Source: Dyella jiangningensis
Lineage (GTDB): Bacteria; Pseudomonadota; Gammaproteobacteria; Xanthomonadales; Rhodanobacteraceae
Direction: 5' to 3'
Length of the DNA stretch: 64,000 nt
Assembly (NCBI GenBank): GCA_000632805.1
Contig: CP007444.1
Coordinates: 3,336,772-3,400,771, forward strand
The notes beneath the pieces are model-generated. The model had not been told where the DNA came from and searched no databases. It saw only the letters and a program-made list of their open reading frames with translations. The translations under genes and the position numbers were made by a program. Each line of letters begins with the position of its first letter. Position 1 is the first letter of the stretch. Below are positions 37,204-45,784 of the stretch, one piece after another.

Positions 37204-37303
37204 AACGATAGACCTCGGCCAATGGGCTAGCTGCCCAACCTCATGAATCGCGCTAGGCTGGCGGCGCCTGGTGGATGGGCGCCGGGAAAGGGGTCAATGG
37301 CCG

Positions 37304-39208
37304 ATGGGTGCAGGGGCGAACTCCCGAGCGGGACGGTGGTGGCGGCGTACATCGCTGATGCAGCGATTGGCCCTGGTCGCGCTCGTGCCCACGCTGGTGA
37401 CCGCCACGCTGCTGGTGGTCATCCTTACCCAGCACCAGCTCAACAGCCTGCGCGGGATGGCGCAGATCACCGCGGACGCGATTGCCACGCAGGCCGCTTC
37501 GGTTTCCACCACCGCACTGCGTGACATGCAGCGTCGCGAACTGGTGCGCATCGCAGAGTCGATCGGCGACCTGCCCCACGTCGCGCGTGTGCAGATCCGG
37601 GCGGCAGATGGCGAGATCCTGGCGGACAACCTCGGCCGCAGCGGCGGTGGCAATGCAGAGACGCTCACGGTAGTTCGCGATGTCGTCGATGCCGAACAAC
37701 CCGGCCGGCCCGTACTGGGTTCGGTCATGGTGGATGTCAGCCTCAGCGACGCCATTGCCGCGCAGCAGGCGAGCCTGCGCAATGCACTCTTCGCGCTTGC
37801 GCTGAGCGTACTGGTCGCCGCGGTGATCGGCTGGCAGGCGGCGCGCTGGATGAGCGCGCCGCTGCGGCGCCTCGTGGCCGCCGTGCATCAACTGGGGCGG
37901 GGTGATCGCCACGTCGAGGTGGAAGTCACCGACCAGACCGAAATCGGCGAACTTCAGCGTGGTTTCAACAGCGCCGCGCTGGCGTTGTTCGATGTCCAGC
38001 GCAGCATGGAAAAAGAGATCGAGCACGCCACGGTGGAACTGGCACGCAAGAACGCCGCGCTGGAGGCGGCCAGCGTGGCCAAGGCACGCTTTCTCGCAGC
38101 GGCCTCGCACGACCTGCGCCAGCCGCTCTACGCGTTGACCCTGTTCTCCTCGTCACTGGCCGAAGACGAGCGTGACCCGATCCGGCTCGATCGCATCGCG
38201 CACATCCAGGAATGCGTGGAGGCGCTCGACCATCTCTTCAGCGAACTGCTCGACCTCTCGCGCCTGGAAACCGGCGCCATGCAGATCGAGATCACCGAAT
38301 TCCCGCTCGACCAGGTGCTGGAGGAAGTGAGCCGCAACTTCCGCATGATCGCCGAGCAGCACGGACTGCGCCTGATCATGCGCACGACGGATGTCTGGGT
38401 CCGCAGCGACCGCACGATGCTCGCACGCATCCTCAACAACCTGGTGAGCAATGCCCTGCGCTACACGCACGAGGGCGGTGTGCTGGTGGTCGCGCGTCGC
38501 CGCAGCGACGGCACCGTGCGACTGGACGTGTGGGATACCGGCACCGGCATCGCGCCCGAACATCAGGCTCGGGTTTTCGACGAGTTCTACCGCGTGGAAT
38601 GCCACGGCAACCACGAGCACGACACCGGCCCGAGACGCGGCCTTGGCCTTGGCCTCGCCACCGTGCAGCGCCTGGCAGAACTGCTCGATACGCAGGTGCA
38701 ACTGAAGTCAGCGCCCGGCCGCGGCAGCGTCTTCAGCTTCCACCTTCCCCAGGTACCCGCCCAGCAAGTGCCGCACGCTGCGGACGACGAGACCCCGCTG
38801 GACGTGTCGGGCATGCGCGTGCTGGTGATCGACGACGAGCCGGCGATTCTCTCAGGCATCCGCTATCTGCTGCGTAGCTGGGGTTGCGAGGTGGCCGTCG
38901 CGGAGGACCGCACGCAGGCCATGCTTGCCGCCGAGGAGTGGCCTATGCCGCCGGACATCGTGATATCCGACCTGCGCCTGCGCGACGGCGAGAGCGGACT
39001 GGACGTGCTCGCCGCGCTTGACCAGCACTACCAGCGCGACGGCAACGCGCCGTTTTCGCGCCTGTTGATCACCGGCGAAACGCGCAGCGACCGTCTACGC
39101 GAAATCATGGCCGCTCGCATTCCCGTGCTCTACAAGCCGGTATCGCCCGAGCAGCTGCGCGAGGCCATGGTGGCGGCCTGGACCACCAACAAGGCCACGG
39201 TGGCCTGA
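37304..39208 (+). CDS. Hybrid sensor histidine kinase with C-terminal receiver
   Basis: A protein of about 634 residues. A first membrane helix (about 20-42) and a second (about 160-178) bracket a periplasmic sensor of about 115 residues. HAMP, a dimerisation/phosphoacceptor domain with SHDLRQPLYAL, a HATPase domain (NNLVSNALRYT, DTGTGIAPE, GLGLGLATV) and a receiver (VIDDEPA, phospho-Asp in SDLRL, LITGET, YKPV) follow. The RQPL type of phosphoacceptor recalls NahK/ErcS-like kinases that work with NarL-type regulators, and one such regulator lies 2 kb downstream. The ATG at 37304 has AAGGGG 10 bp upstream; a GTG at 37271 is also possible. Signal unknown. Confidence 0.88.
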   Translation: MGAGANSRAGRWWRRTSLMQRLALVALVPTLVTATLLVVILTQHQLNSLRGMAQITADAIATQAASVSTTALRDMQRRELVRIAESIGDLPHVARVQIRAADGEILADNLGRSGGGNAETLTVVRDVVDAEQPGRPVLGSVMVDVSLSDAIAAQQASLRNALFALALSVLVAAVIGWQAARWMSAPLRRLVAAVHQLGRGDRHVEVEVTDQTEIGELQRGFNSAALALFDVQRSMEKEIEHATVELARKNAALEAASVAKARFLAAASHDLRQPLYALTLFSSSLAEDERDPIRLDRIAHIQECVEALDHLFSELLDLSRLETGAMQIEITEFPLDQVLEEVSRNFRMIAEQHGLRLIMRTTDVWVRSDRTMLARILNNLVSNALRYTHEGGVLVVARRRSDGTVRLDVWDTGTGIAPEHQARVFDEFYRVECHGNHEHDTGPRRGLGLGLATVQRLAELLDTQVQLKSAPGRGSVFSFHLPQVPAQQVPHAADDETPLDVSGMRVLVIDDEPAILSGIRYLLRSWGCEVAVAEDRTQAMLAAEEWPMPPDIVISDLRLRDGESGLDVLAALDQHYQRDGNAPFSRLLITGETRSDRLREIMAARIPVLYKPVSPEQLREAMVAAWTTNKATVA

Positions 39209-39224: not shown

Positions 39225-41027
39225 TCAGCTTTCCGCTGCGATGCGCCGTGCCAGCAGGCGATCGGCCGACAGGAAGCGACCGAACAGGTCATCGACGAAA
39301 TCGCCGCTCGGGGCGCTTGGACGCGCGCCACCGGTGAGATAGAGACCGCACCAGAGCAACCGACGCCCGGTGCTGCCCTCGCCGGCCATCAGCCGGTCGA
39401 GGAAAACCTGCAGGCCACGCTGCAATGTTGGCAGCGATTGCAGGAACGCGAACACTTCACGGCGCCCATGGGCATGCCGCTGTACAGCCAAGGCAGCCAT
39501 GGCCGCCCCTCGGAGGCGATGCCCCACCTCTTCGCCGCGGACGTCCATACGTCCATGAAACGTCATCGTTCCGGGCGAGATGGCGACGCGCCAGCCCAGC
39601 ACGCGCCTGAACACCGCCGAAGGCAGGGTCGACCTGACGGCGGCATGGCCCGGCAACGCTTCCAGGCCGGTCACCACGACGTACAACGGCAGCTGCAGCT
39701 GCAGGTGCCGCGTCGCCTCGCTGGCCATTTCCTGCAGCCGCGCCGCGCGGGCGCTGATCTGCGTCGGTGAATCCAGCAGGCTTTGCGCCGAGACGCAGAC
39801 GACCATGCCATCCAGCGGAAGCTTGCGGCGTTCGCGCGCCAACAAGGCGAGCGCCTGCGACCAGGACGAAGGCTGCCCGTGAGGCTCGGCGGCTGTTTGC
39901 AGCAGGTATCCGCCCGGCTCGATCGCCACCACCGAGCGGAAGATCCACCAATACCATGGCCTGGCCTCGTTGTTCGCGGCGGCGTTGCGCGCATGCGGCG
40001 CGTGCGCGGCAGCCTGCAACAGGCTGCGCACTTCCGCCGAGCTGTCGCCGAGAAACATCAGCCAGGGGTGCCGGGACAACTTTCGCCATTCGCCACGACG
40101 ACGAAAGGGATGCAACACGGCGCCACGCACGTGTCGCGCGGCATCGAGCAAGGCCGACCAGACGTCACCGACCCCATAACTGGCCTCCGGATGCGAAGCG
40201 ACGCGCGTATGCGTACGCATCACTACCAGCCGGTGCCAGGCGAGTGCACCAGCCCAGGCCAGCGCGCTCACGGCCACCACGGCAAGTCCCAGCAGCGACC
40301 AGGTTTCCGCGGAGATCCCGTGACTGAAAACCGGCGCCACGAAGGTCACCAGCACCGGCAACACCACCGCCGTGGCAACGAACGGCACCGAGCGTCGCCC
40401 CATCCATGAGGCAGGCAGCCGGAGCGGCGGCGATCCCGGCGCAAGATACGGTTGCGGGGTAATCGGCTCACGCTGCAACGACTGCAACACGCCGGTCGCC
40501 GTGACGCTGGAACGGCAGTACAAGGCCTTGATCCTGCCTAGCTCGCCGCTGTCGTCCTGCTCGTAGTAATACTGGCCGGCATAGCCGAGCATCAGCGCCA
40601 TGCCGAATACCTCGCGAACCTCTTCCGCCGTGGGCGGCAGGCGGGCGAGATGGTCGAAGAATTCGCTGGCGGCGCCGGACGTGCCGAACAGATCCAATTG
40701 CAGCGGGCTGGCCAGATGTTTCCACTCGTCCTGGCGCATGACGATCTCGTCGAACCAGGCGACCGCGGCGAAGCCCGCCATCTCGACGTCGGCGAGGGCC
40801 TTGCCCGCCGCAAGCGCCTTGCCACGTGCTTCGTCCATGATGGCGCGGGCACGCGCCTGCACTGTTGCCAGCTCGCCCGGGCCGTCAGCCGTCGAAGCCT
40901 GCTCTTCGATGAGCAAGCCGTACGCGAACAAAGGTGCGTAACACTCCAGCAGCCGCATGACACCCATGGCTCCGAAGTCAAGGCAAGCGCCACGCGCGTC
41001 GCCCGACCCGTTCGCACCGTCTCCCAT
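39225..41027 (-). CDS. TssL(DotU)-TssM(IcmF) fusion protein, orphan
   Basis: A 600-residue protein. Residues about 24-170 match the cytoplasmic DotU/TssL domain (LLECYAPLFAYGLLI, WFDEIVM, FGMALMLGYAGQYY). Two membrane helices follow (about 213-233 and 243-266). Residues about 318-600 follow the IcmF/TssM N-terminal NTPase and linker region: PWYWWIFRSVVAIEPGGYLL, LPLYVVVTGLEALPG, LWCGLYLTGGARP and a FVDDLFGRFLSADRLL end. The Walker A is degenerate (PWLMFLGDSSAEVRSLL, without GKT) and the TKxD-like motif reads TGLE, so NTP hydrolysis is unlikely. The TssM periplasmic part is absent. No other secretion gene is nearby. Starts at 41027 or 40967 are possible. Confidence 0.75.
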   Translation of the reverse strand: MGDGANGSGDARGACLDFGAMGVMRLLECYAPLFAYGLLIEEQASTADGPGELATVQARARAIMDEARGKALAAGKALADVEMAGFAAVAWFDEIVMRQDEWKHLASPLQLDLFGTSGAASEFFDHLARLPPTAEEVREVFGMALMLGYAGQYYYEQDDSGELGRIKALYCRSSVTATGVLQSLQREPITPQPYLAPGSPPLRLPASWMGRRSVPFVATAVVLPVLVTFVAPVFSHGISAETWSLLGLAVVAVSALAWAGALAWHRLVVMRTHTRVASHPEASYGVGDVWSALLDAARHVRGAVLHPFRRRGEWRKLSRHPWLMFLGDSSAEVRSLLQAAAHAPHARNAAANNEARPWYWWIFRSVVAIEPGGYLLQTAAEPHGQPSSWSQALALLARERRKLPLDGMVVCVSAQSLLDSPTQISARAARLQEMASEATRHLQLQLPLYVVVTGLEALPGHAAVRSTLPSAVFRRVLGWRVAISPGTMTFHGRMDVRGEEVGHRLRGAAMAALAVQRHAHGRREVFAFLQSLPTLQRGLQVFLDRLMAGEGSTGRRLLWCGLYLTGGARPSAPSGDFVDDLFGRFLSADRLLARRIAAES

Positions 41028-41259
41028 CAAGACAAAACTCACGCAGCGCCATGCCGCCGGCGCCGCCCCTGTCGCTGCGCGATGGACCACTTCCATTCGC
41101 ACGCGCTGATTCTCTCGGCCGCTCACACGGTGGGCCATATGACCTTATGACTAGACCGTTCGTAAGCGCCGCCAGGTTGCCGTATCAGCGGGCTGGGGCT
41201 ATGTTGCGTTCGCGAATGCACGGCGATGGGAGAGCCGTGCGCGCGTCTTGGGGAACAAC

Positions 41260-41949
41260 ATGCGCATACTGATTGCGGACGACCATCGACTGATTGTCGA
41301 AGGGGTCAAGCTCAAGCTGGCCGAGCTTGGGCCAGACACCGATTTTGTCACCGCCATGGACATGGCCGAGCTGCGCGATGCGATACATGCACCCGACGCA
41401 GCATCCTTGTCACTCGCGCTGGTGGATCTGGCCATGCCCGGGGTGCGCGGGAACGAGCATCTGACGGAGGTGATCGAGCAGCTGCCCAAACTTCCCGTCA
41501 TCGTGTTGTCGGGGGTGGAAGATCCGAACCTGATGAAGAACCTGCTCGCGATGGGCGTGCAAGGTTTCATCCCCAAGGCTTATTCGCCTGACGTCATGCT
41601 GTCCGCGGTACGGCTGGTTCTGTCTGGCGGCATGTACGTGCCGCCGCTGATGCTGCAGGAACGCAGCGATGGAGCTTCCAACGGCGCGGCCACCACGGCG
41701 GCACAACCGCCCGCGCCGGCAGCCGCCTCGCCCGATTCACTCGAAGAACGCCTGCGCAAGTTGCTTACCGAACGCCAGATCGACGTGCTGCGGCTGCTCT
41801 CGCAGGGCAAGCCGAACAAGCTGATCGCGCGCGACCTGGGCATCAGCGAGGGCACGGTGAAGATCCATCTGGCCGCCATTTTCCGTGCACTCAATGTGCG
41901 CAATCGCGTGGAGGCGGTGGTCGCCTCGCGGCGTATCAGCGGCCTGTAG
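41260..41949 (+). CDS. NarL/FixJ-family response regulator
   Basis: A 229-residue two-component regulator. The N-terminal receiver (about 1-120) has ILIADDH, the phospho-Asp in ALVDLAMPG, VLSGVE and the lysine of FIPKAYS. An alanine/proline linker leads to a LuxR-type helix-turn-helix (about 165-225: LTERQIDVLRLLSQGKPNKLIARDLGISEGTVKIHL). The ATG at 41260 was chosen over an upstream TTG because GGGGA lies just before it. It is divergent from the TssL-TssM fusion gene across 232 bp, and is followed by the PhnD-like gene. A plausible partner of the two histidine kinases flanking it. Confidence 0.92.
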   Translation: MRILIADDHRLIVEGVKLKLAELGPDTDFVTAMDMAELRDAIHAPDAASLSLALVDLAMPGVRGNEHLTEVIEQLPKLPVIVLSGVEDPNLMKNLLAMGVQGFIPKAYSPDVMLSAVRLVLSGGMYVPPLMLQERSDGASNGAATTAAQPPAPAAASPDSLEERLRKLLTERQIDVLRLLSQGKPNKLIARDLGISEGTVKIHLAAIFRALNVRNRVEAVVASRRISGL

Positions 41950-42053
41950 CATTCACCCGGCCGTGACCGACGCCGCGTATGCTGCCCGCACGCCGCAGGC
42001 GCCGGTTGCTGCCGGAGTCGCCTGATGCTCACTGGGGGAATGCCGTCTTGCCG

Positions 42054-43103
42054 ATGGGATGGGTGACAAACCTCAGGCGCCGTTCCACCTGGTGGTCCGC
42101 CATCGGCCTTCTGCTGGTCTGCGTGTTCTGCATGCCGGTGCATGCGGCGCAACCGGCCAGCCCGCCGCACGACGCCAAGCACATCAGCGCCCTCACCTTC
42201 GGCATCCTGCCGATTGGCGGCCCGTCGGAGTCACTGGCCGCCTGGCGACCCATGCTGGACGACCTCAGTCATAACCTGGGGCTGCCCATCCACAGCATCT
42301 CGGTCAGCACGTACGAAGGCCTTGGCCAGGCGCTCGCCGAGGAACGTGTCGACTTCGCTTTCGTGTCCGGCCGCCTGGCGCTCGATGCGGTGACCCACGA
42401 TCGCATGCAGGTCATCGCGCAACTGACGCGCACCAATGGCTCGCGCGGCTATTACTCGGTACTGCTGGTCGCCAAGGATTCGCCGCTCCGCAGCGTGGAC
42501 GACATGTTCAAGCAGCCTGGCCGCCTGCGCTATGCGCGAGGCGAGGTGCTTTCGGTATCAGGCTACCTGGTGCCGGAAACCCAGCTGTTCGCCAATCGCC
42601 GACTGGACTCGGATACCTTCTTCGCCAATGTCACCGTCGACAACCACCAGAACAACGCGCTGGCGGTCGCCAACAATGAGGTCGACGTCGCCACCAACAA
42701 CACGGCAGACATGGAGCGCTTCGCCAAGCGCTTTCCCGACCAGTTCGCGCGGCTGCGGGTGTTGTGGACATCCAGCCTGATTCCGCACGCTGTGGTGGTG
42801 ATGCGCGAAGACCTGCCCGTCGAGCTTCGGCAACGCGTGACCGCCGCACTCACCTCCTACGGCAGCGGCAAGAACGCCCAGGCCGAACTGGCCAAGCTGC
42901 AGCTGATCCATGACATCAGCGGTTTTGCGCCCGCCGGCAACGAGACGCTGGTGCCGTTCGCGGACATCGAGTTCAACCTTGACCGGCGGCGCGCCTATAG
43001 CGCGCAATGGGTCAGCGACACCGCCATGCAGGCGCGCCTGCACAAGATCGACACCGAGCACCAGGCCCTGGTGCATGAGTTGATGGCGCCGACGAAACCG
43101 TAA
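42054..43103 (+). CDS. PhnD-like periplasmic substrate-binding protein without transporter
   Basis: A 349-residue protein of the PhnD/SsuA/transferrin fold. After a basic N-terminus and signal segment (AIGLLLVCVFCMPVHAA), the binding-protein pattern is seen in LTFGILPIGGPSESLAAWRPML, VDFAFVSGRLALDA, SVLLVAKDSPLRSVDDM and the duplicated lobe (NNEVDVATNNTADME). Relatives bind phosphonates, sulfonates or other anions. No permease or ATPase gene is nearby. Instead a response regulator precedes it and a histidine kinase follows, so a sensory role is likely. Start: ATG 42054, or TTG 42048, which has a better-placed GGGGGA site. Confidence 0.82.
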   Translation: MGWVTNLRRRSTWWSAIGLLLVCVFCMPVHAAQPASPPHDAKHISALTFGILPIGGPSESLAAWRPMLDDLSHNLGLPIHSISVSTYEGLGQALAEERVDFAFVSGRLALDAVTHDRMQVIAQLTRTNGSRGYYSVLLVAKDSPLRSVDDMFKQPGRLRYARGEVLSVSGYLVPETQLFANRRLDSDTFFANVTVDNHQNNALAVANNEVDVATNNTADMERFAKRFPDQFARLRVLWTSSLIPHAVVVMREDLPVELRQRVTAALTSYGSGKNAQAELAKLQLIHDISGFAPAGNETLVPFADIEFNLDRRRAYSAQWVSDTAMQARLHKIDTEHQALVHELMAPTKP

Positions 43104-45708: not shown

Positions 45709-45784
45709 TGGTGGGTCGTCCGAGATTCGAACTCGGGACCAATAGATTAAAAGTCTACTGCTCTACCGACTGAGCTAACGACCC
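45709..45784 (-). tRNA. tRNA-Lys (TTT)
   Basis: A 76-nt cloverleaf on the minus strand, starting GGGTCGTTAGCTCAG and ending in an encoded CCA. The acceptor stem GGGTCGT pairs with ACGACCC, the T arm contains GTTCGAATC, and the anticodon loop CTTTTAA gives anticodon TTT. A terminator follows. Confidence 0.97.

Follow-up and report, generated by a model that had tools for sequence, protein, structure and literature searches.

Secretion machines are usually pictured as being either kept whole or lost whole. The locus considered here, in a window of 64,000 nucleotides from the Dyella jiangningensis contig CP007444.1, raises the question of how parts of two membrane proteins of the type VI secretion system (T6SS), TssL and TssM, came to be joined in a single chain, and what such a chain may do in a genome in which other core components of the machine were not found.

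Domain composition of the TssL-TssM fusion

The fusion gene lies on the minus strand at 39225..40958 and encodes 577 amino acids followed by a stop codon. Its start, the ATG of MRLLEC, has a GGAG 11 bases upstream, and the start methionine is conserved in all 20 orthologues. The gene had earlier been read as 39225-41027, from an upstream ATG which is not conserved. Residues 1-185 (40404..40958, minus strand) correspond to the cytoplasmic domain of TssL/DotU, the membrane helix and tail of TssL being missing. Next come two membrane helices, which derive from helices 1 and 2 of TssM (residues 186-251; 40206..40403, minus strand), and then the cytoplasmic pseudo-GTPase domain of TssM (residues 252-577; 39228..40205, minus strand), which has Pfam IcmF-related_N and GTPase-fold matches. 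The preliminary description of this DNA had proposed a TssL/DotU domain, two helices and a TssM N-terminal domain in one chain, and this composition is confirmed, with 577 residues when counted from the conserved start. Matches to both families that it had named were obtained: the TssL/DotU part is placed by a DotU profile match and by its fold, and the TssM/IcmF part by the IcmF-related N-terminal domain (PF14331, E 8.9e-29).

The NCBIfam TssM profile scores the fusion at 105 against a cut-off of 388, and neither TssM helix 3 nor the large periplasmic domain is present in the fusion according to the profile and the alignment to the parental proteins. Local alignments to the separate TssL and TssM of two parental loci, L051 and L054, place the joint at approximately residue 184-188. 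The TssL match weakens beyond about residue 185, where the protein's own C-terminal anchor is replaced by the TssM helices, while the TssM match covers the parental protein, of about 1170 residues, from residue 7-9 to residue 391-396, just short of helix 3. The earlier claim that the periplasmic part is missing is thereby borne out.

In the AlphaFold2 (AF2) model, which was built on an 82-row alignment since a model from the 20 fusions only was poor (pLDDT 62), the helices span residues 186-206 and 217-251, and the model is weak at residues 165-188 and 246-292. The latter segment includes a basic stretch, HPFRRRGxWR, located after the second helix at residues 283-292 and conserved in most fusions. 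The top Foldseek rows for the model are mostly G-alpha chains aligned at an rmsd of 11-15, which may be taken as a sign of a GTPase-like fold only, and no solved TssM is among the rows listed. No TssL-TssM fusion protein appears in the titles and abstract openings of the open-licence PMC papers listed by literature searches.

The T6SS island at the same site in related genomes

A hybrid histidine kinase with HAMP, HisKA, HATPase and receiver domains (37271..39208, plus strand) is the convergent neighbour of the fusion. On its other side, a LuxR-type response regulator (41248..41949, plus strand) is divergent from it, and a phosphonate-type periplasmic binding protein (41979..43103, plus strand) is encoded 3' of the regulator. 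All three were identified by Pfam, and the kinase and regulator by synteny as well. A second binding-protein paralogue, with 48% identity, is found at G000:C1:2590197-2591180. The sole tRNA found in the window is a tRNA-Lys (anticodon TTT) at 45709-45784 on the minus strand.

The nearest homologues outside the genus are adjacent but separate tssL and tssM genes in six genomes, encoding proteins of about 450 amino acids (with a DUF4384 tail in L051) and about 1170 amino acids, respectively. In all six relatives, the two genes sit in the same orientation between homologues of the same kinase, which forms the left border of a T6SS island, and homologues of the same regulator and binding protein, the latter being located inside the island. 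With genes named by their similarity to genes identified by Pfam, the island reads tssE, hcp, tssC, tssB, tssA, tssM, tssL, tssK and a gumN-like gene on one strand, and continues with the regulator and the binding protein on the other strand and then with tssF, tssG and a ClpV-type ATPase. All genes from tssE to tssK in this order are present in 6/6 islands. TssF is present in the six relatives: five have it 2-6 kb past the binding protein, and G083 has it on another contig. TssG and the ClpV-type ATPase are present in four (G188, G171, G084 and, on a separate contig, G083), while the sequence stops short in G164 and G170. VgrG is present in G188, the only island genome checked for it, and TssJ was not identified in the parental islands. 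Between the tssE-like and hcp-like matches in G083, there is a match to the papain-like C70 peptidase family (L060 7543-8082), a candidate T6SS cargo. No complete T6SS cluster with the fusion as a normal member was found; the relatives that have the island carry separate tssL and tssM genes.

The distance between the kinase and the binding protein could be measured in 60 of the 84 kinase-bearing genomes. It is 14.4-19.5 kb in the six T6SS genomes and 2.8-3.8 kb in the 20 fusion genomes. The set of kinase, regulator and binding protein is also retained by many members of the family without either the fusion or the T6SS, with a short gap of 0.77-1.2 kb in 33 of the 60 genomes, and in the three of these that were read gene by gene the three genes lie side by side. 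In G101 the kinase-regulator site contains two unrelated inserted genes (L078 9166-11829), and the distance is 3.5 kb. By eye, these resemble an antiporter-type membrane protein and a small lipoprotein, and the site seems to accept insertions.

A phylogeny of the TssM region was inferred under LG+C20 from 64 rows, including the 20 fusions and 8 parental TssMs but neither L074 and L075, which are duplicates of L056 and L055, nor L122-L124, which were found later. The 20 fusions group in one clade (100/99), and a branch supported at 100/99 connects this clade with the 8 parental TssMs; the program issued a warning about adjoining long branches in this tree. It is very probable, and well supported by these comparisons, that the gene is indeed a fusion and an in-place remnant of a T6SS island formerly located between the kinase and the regulator. 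This origin of the fusion from tssL and tssM in place appears to be new here. One deletion may have joined tssL, at about codon 185, to the start of the adjacent tssM, and so placed the cytoplasmic domain of TssL onto TssM helix 1. A second loss would have removed TssM helix 3 and the periplasmic part, the remaining tss genes would have been lost too, and the product would then have been retained by purifying selection through Dyella.

Retention in Dyella and the nucleotide site

The fusion is intact in 20/20 Dyella genomes examined, always between homologues of the histidine kinase and the response regulator. The neighbours are alike in the 19 other genus genomes, where a Glx-tRNA synthetase gene, a deaminase, a membrane protein and the hybrid kinase precede the fusion, which is in reverse, and the LuxR regulator, the phosphonate-type binding protein, a DUF3617 gene and a second kinase follow it. 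An artefact or a frameshift was ruled out, since the frame is open from the conserved start to the stop in all 20 genus genomes; apparent internal stops in G045, G046 and G061 fall outside this span. A survey of 398 genomes from the order, with matches accepted at E up to 1e-25, found no fusion outside Dyella, although more distant fusions would escape at this limit. The 23 matches in this survey comprise 15 Dyella genomes with the fusion and 8 genomes with separate genes. A scan of contigs gave, among the matches listed, fusions at 9 of 13 loci, all from Dyella, and separate genes at the other four.

The rest of a T6SS was searched for across the genomes. In the single-contig genome of D. jiangningensis, the genome-wide search found no TssC, TssK, Hcp or TssF, so that the sheath, baseplate and tube genes expected of a functional T6SS are missing at this sensitivity, and the only DotU is that of the fusion. 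The orphan status given to the gene in the preliminary description is consequently upheld for the whole genome. In the genus, TssC is present in 6/20 genomes and absent from 14/20, TssK is present in 5/20 and Hcp in 7/20. TrbI, a type IV secretion protein of the VirB10/DotG type, is present in six of the 20 genomes, including that of D. jiangningensis, and 11/20 genomes have neither TssC nor TrbI. Two of the 20 genomes, one of which is that of D. jiangningensis (listed contamination 8.39), do not reach the quality threshold (90% completeness, 5% contamination), and single absences are therefore less sure in these two. An Hcp-family gene (G052:C12:28379-28765) in one Dyella genome, for which neither TssC nor TssK gave a match, is another possible leftover of a T6SS.

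The dN/dS ratios (Nei-Gojobori) are 0.07-0.18 in the 12 closest pairs of fusion genes. The pooled ratios for eight close pairs are 0.11 for the TssL domain, 0.15 for the helices and 0.10 for the TssM domain. Between the window gene and 16 more distant genus members the ratios are 0.19-0.33, at dS values of 0.9-1.6 that are near saturation. The fusion evolves faster than its neighbours, with 56-66% identity as compared to 84-89% for the kinase in the 16 more distant genomes. These data indicate that the fusion is kept by purifying selection throughout the genus Dyella, and its earlier description as a repurposed rather than a decaying gene gains support from the intact frames and from the ratios in the closest pairs. 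As the fusion is intact and under selection though the other T6SS parts are gone, it probably has a new job.

The nucleotide site was suggested to be degenerate, and this is correct in that the Walker A motif is absent and TGLE replaces TKxD, but the loss did not occur in the fusion itself. None of the 20 fusions contains a G-x4-GK[ST] Walker A motif, and the motif is also absent in 11/11 intact TssMs of the parental clade, which are those of L051-L056, L076 from Lysobacter, L077 from a Pseudomonadales metagenome-assembled genome (MAG) and L122-L124. The fusion therefore inherited the loss, which is the older event and occurs alongside an otherwise well-stocked T6SS gene set. The motif is present in 36/36 other TssMs of the family examined, from a total of 67 other TssM matches. 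At the two motif positions, the window fusion has GDSSAEVRS and TGLE, and L051 has GDADANVHG and TGLE. TGLE is found in 14/20 fusions, the others having mostly TG followed by a hydrophobic residue and E or D, and the parental L055 reads TGLD. The locus thus also points to a T6SS lineage with a TssM that has no Walker A motif in every member seen (11/11), and in this lineage tssJ was not identified.

Several changes separate the fusions from their parents. The cytoplasmic parts contain 250 positions that do not vary among the 8 parents, of which 104 are retained in at least 19/20 fusions (51/100 in TssL and 53/150 in TssM), and 21 parent-invariant positions in the whole protein have another residue in at least 18/20 fusions. 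The TssM part has a net charge of +6 to +17 and a pI of 9.6-11.3 in the 20 fusions, as compared to +1 to +5 and 7.7-9.4 in the 8 parents. In other TssMs, the net charge is -5 to +13 (mean 4.7, n=35), so that most, but not all, of the fusion values fall outside what is usual. Fusions and parents alike have an acidic TssL part. The 21 altered positions and the basic TssM part count for a probable shift of function.

Possible functions and comparison with known systems

For the suggested tie between the fusion and the two-component genes, the support is at the level of linkage. All 20 Dyella genomes have the regulator divergent from the fusion, and in all 11 parental clusters, among them those of Lysobacter, the Pseudomonadales MAG and the three genomes from another family, it is divergent from tssK-tssL-tssM, though a gumN-like gene lies between the regulator and tssK in 10 of the 11. 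This arrangement implies that the regulatory link predates the fusion, and supports an old link of this kind. The binding protein is located beside the regulator in the six relatives and in Lysobacter; it was not found in the three loci from another family (L122-L124), and the MAG contig ends in the regulator. A conserved block 5' of the regulator (window ~41130-41248), with the elements GCCATAT, GGTTGCCG and GGGGCTATGTT, resembles a promoter with regulator sites. The alignment upstream of the regulator took in 22 of 31 sequences, 20 from Dyella and two from genomes without the fusion (L079 and L080) but none from T6SS loci. L079 and L080 share the block in part, and it reads as the regulator's own promoter, whereas conservation is poor on the side nearer the fusion. 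This pattern does not argue for the regulator controlling the fusion.

We infer that the fusion has been domesticated as a pseudo-GTPase platform in the inner membrane and is most probably connected with the linked signalling genes, an explanation to which we give about an even chance. The two helices would be inserted in the inner membrane and both domains would be cytoplasmic as in the parents, the side of the membrane being taken from the topology reported for TssL and TssM of enteroaggregative Escherichia coli (EAEC; PMC3426401, PMC3213119). Packing as in the T6SS membrane complex may persist between the TssL domain, which is acidic, and the basic pseudo-GTPase domain, and the two would then form a docking platform. 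Its likeliest use would be as a membrane anchor or adaptor in a circuit, concerned with signalling or expression, that the linked kinase, regulator and binding protein would form, the regulator having probably been head to head with the tss genes already before the machine was lost. The fusion alone is not expected to secrete anything. A more specific version can be put forward tentatively: all that is left of a T6SS membrane complex may be a single pseudo-GTPase scaffold in the inner membrane, facing the cytoplasm, and throughout the genus this scaffold may have been exapted into the circuit of hybrid kinase, LuxR regulator and periplasmic binding protein by which the secretion machine would once have been controlled. 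The kinase, regulator and binding protein do not need the fusion, since the set occurs without it in 33/60 genomes, and the unrelated genes at the same site in G101 mean that the neighbourhood of the fusion may partly be due to chance.

It is possible, if rather doubtful, that the repurposed platform has a job unrelated to the two-component genes, such as holding an enzyme or some other envelope assembly in place at the membrane or the pole. There is a precedent in the type IVB system of Legionella, where DotU and IcmF are described as localising to the pole, stabilising the machine and enhancing its polar assembly (PMC7029142). The fusion has retained only membrane and cytoplasmic parts, and the basic surface of its TssM part could suit the binding of lipids or proteins. 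However, a type IV system as a constant partner of the fusion was rejected because TrbI is restricted to the six genomes mentioned above. A role as an inhibitor or decoy, in which the truncated TssL-TssM would bind the baseplate proteins of other T6SSs and modulate or block them, seems unlikely. Some T6SS contacts may survive, given that 106 positions are invariant in 8 parents and unchanged in at least 19/20 fusions, and six of the 20 genus genomes do have other T6SSs. Yet TssC is missing in the other 14, the constraint is equal between two genomes without TssC (L002-L003, dN/dS 0.07), and the 21 altered parent-invariant positions also speak against this role.

The high rate of change of the fusion relative to its neighbours and the disappearance of the rest of the island could be the signs of a non-functional relic in slow decay, but this is disfavoured as very improbable by the 20 intact frames and the low dN/dS ratios in the 12 closest pairs. 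Finally, the domains are those of TssL and TssM, as they would be in an ordinary T6SS member whose partner genes lie elsewhere in the genome. This hardly credible option is refuted for the D. jiangningensis genome, at the sensitivity used, by the failure to find TssC, TssK, Hcp and TssF in its single contig, and the fusion also has no periplasmic part. If the tentative exaptation into the signalling circuit is true, a secretion apparatus has been turned into a signalling or anchoring part. In related genera, one locus shows an intact ancestor, an empty site and a trimmed remnant under selection, and what a cytoplasmic TssL-TssM platform can do without the machine becomes directly testable.

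The closest known counterparts are the TssL and TssM proteins of the Rhodanobacteraceae islands (L051-L056), with which the fusion shares both domains, TssM helices 1 and 2, the genomic site and orientation, the missing Walker A motif and the replacement of TKxD by TG, a hydrophobic residue and E or D. It differs from them in being one chain rather than two, in lacking the helix and tail of TssL as well as helix 3 and the periplasmic domain of TssM, in the more basic TssM part, and in that the sheath, tube and baseplate genes of those loci are gone. DotU and IcmF of Legionella, described as an inner-membrane stabiliser and positioning factor outside the T6SS (PMC7029142, PMC3426401), likewise represent a module of the TssL/TssM type that is used outside a T6SS. 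However, they are two proteins that serve a secretion system, whereas the Dyella protein is a single fused chain accompanied by no constant secretion system. Evolved TssL proteins, such as ImpK of Agrobacterium, are reported as fusions of TssL to a peptidoglycan-binding domain (PMC3426401) and are thus also TssL fusions, but they add a periplasmic domain and remain parts of a T6SS, whereas the Dyella fusion lacks such a domain and has TssL joined to TssM.
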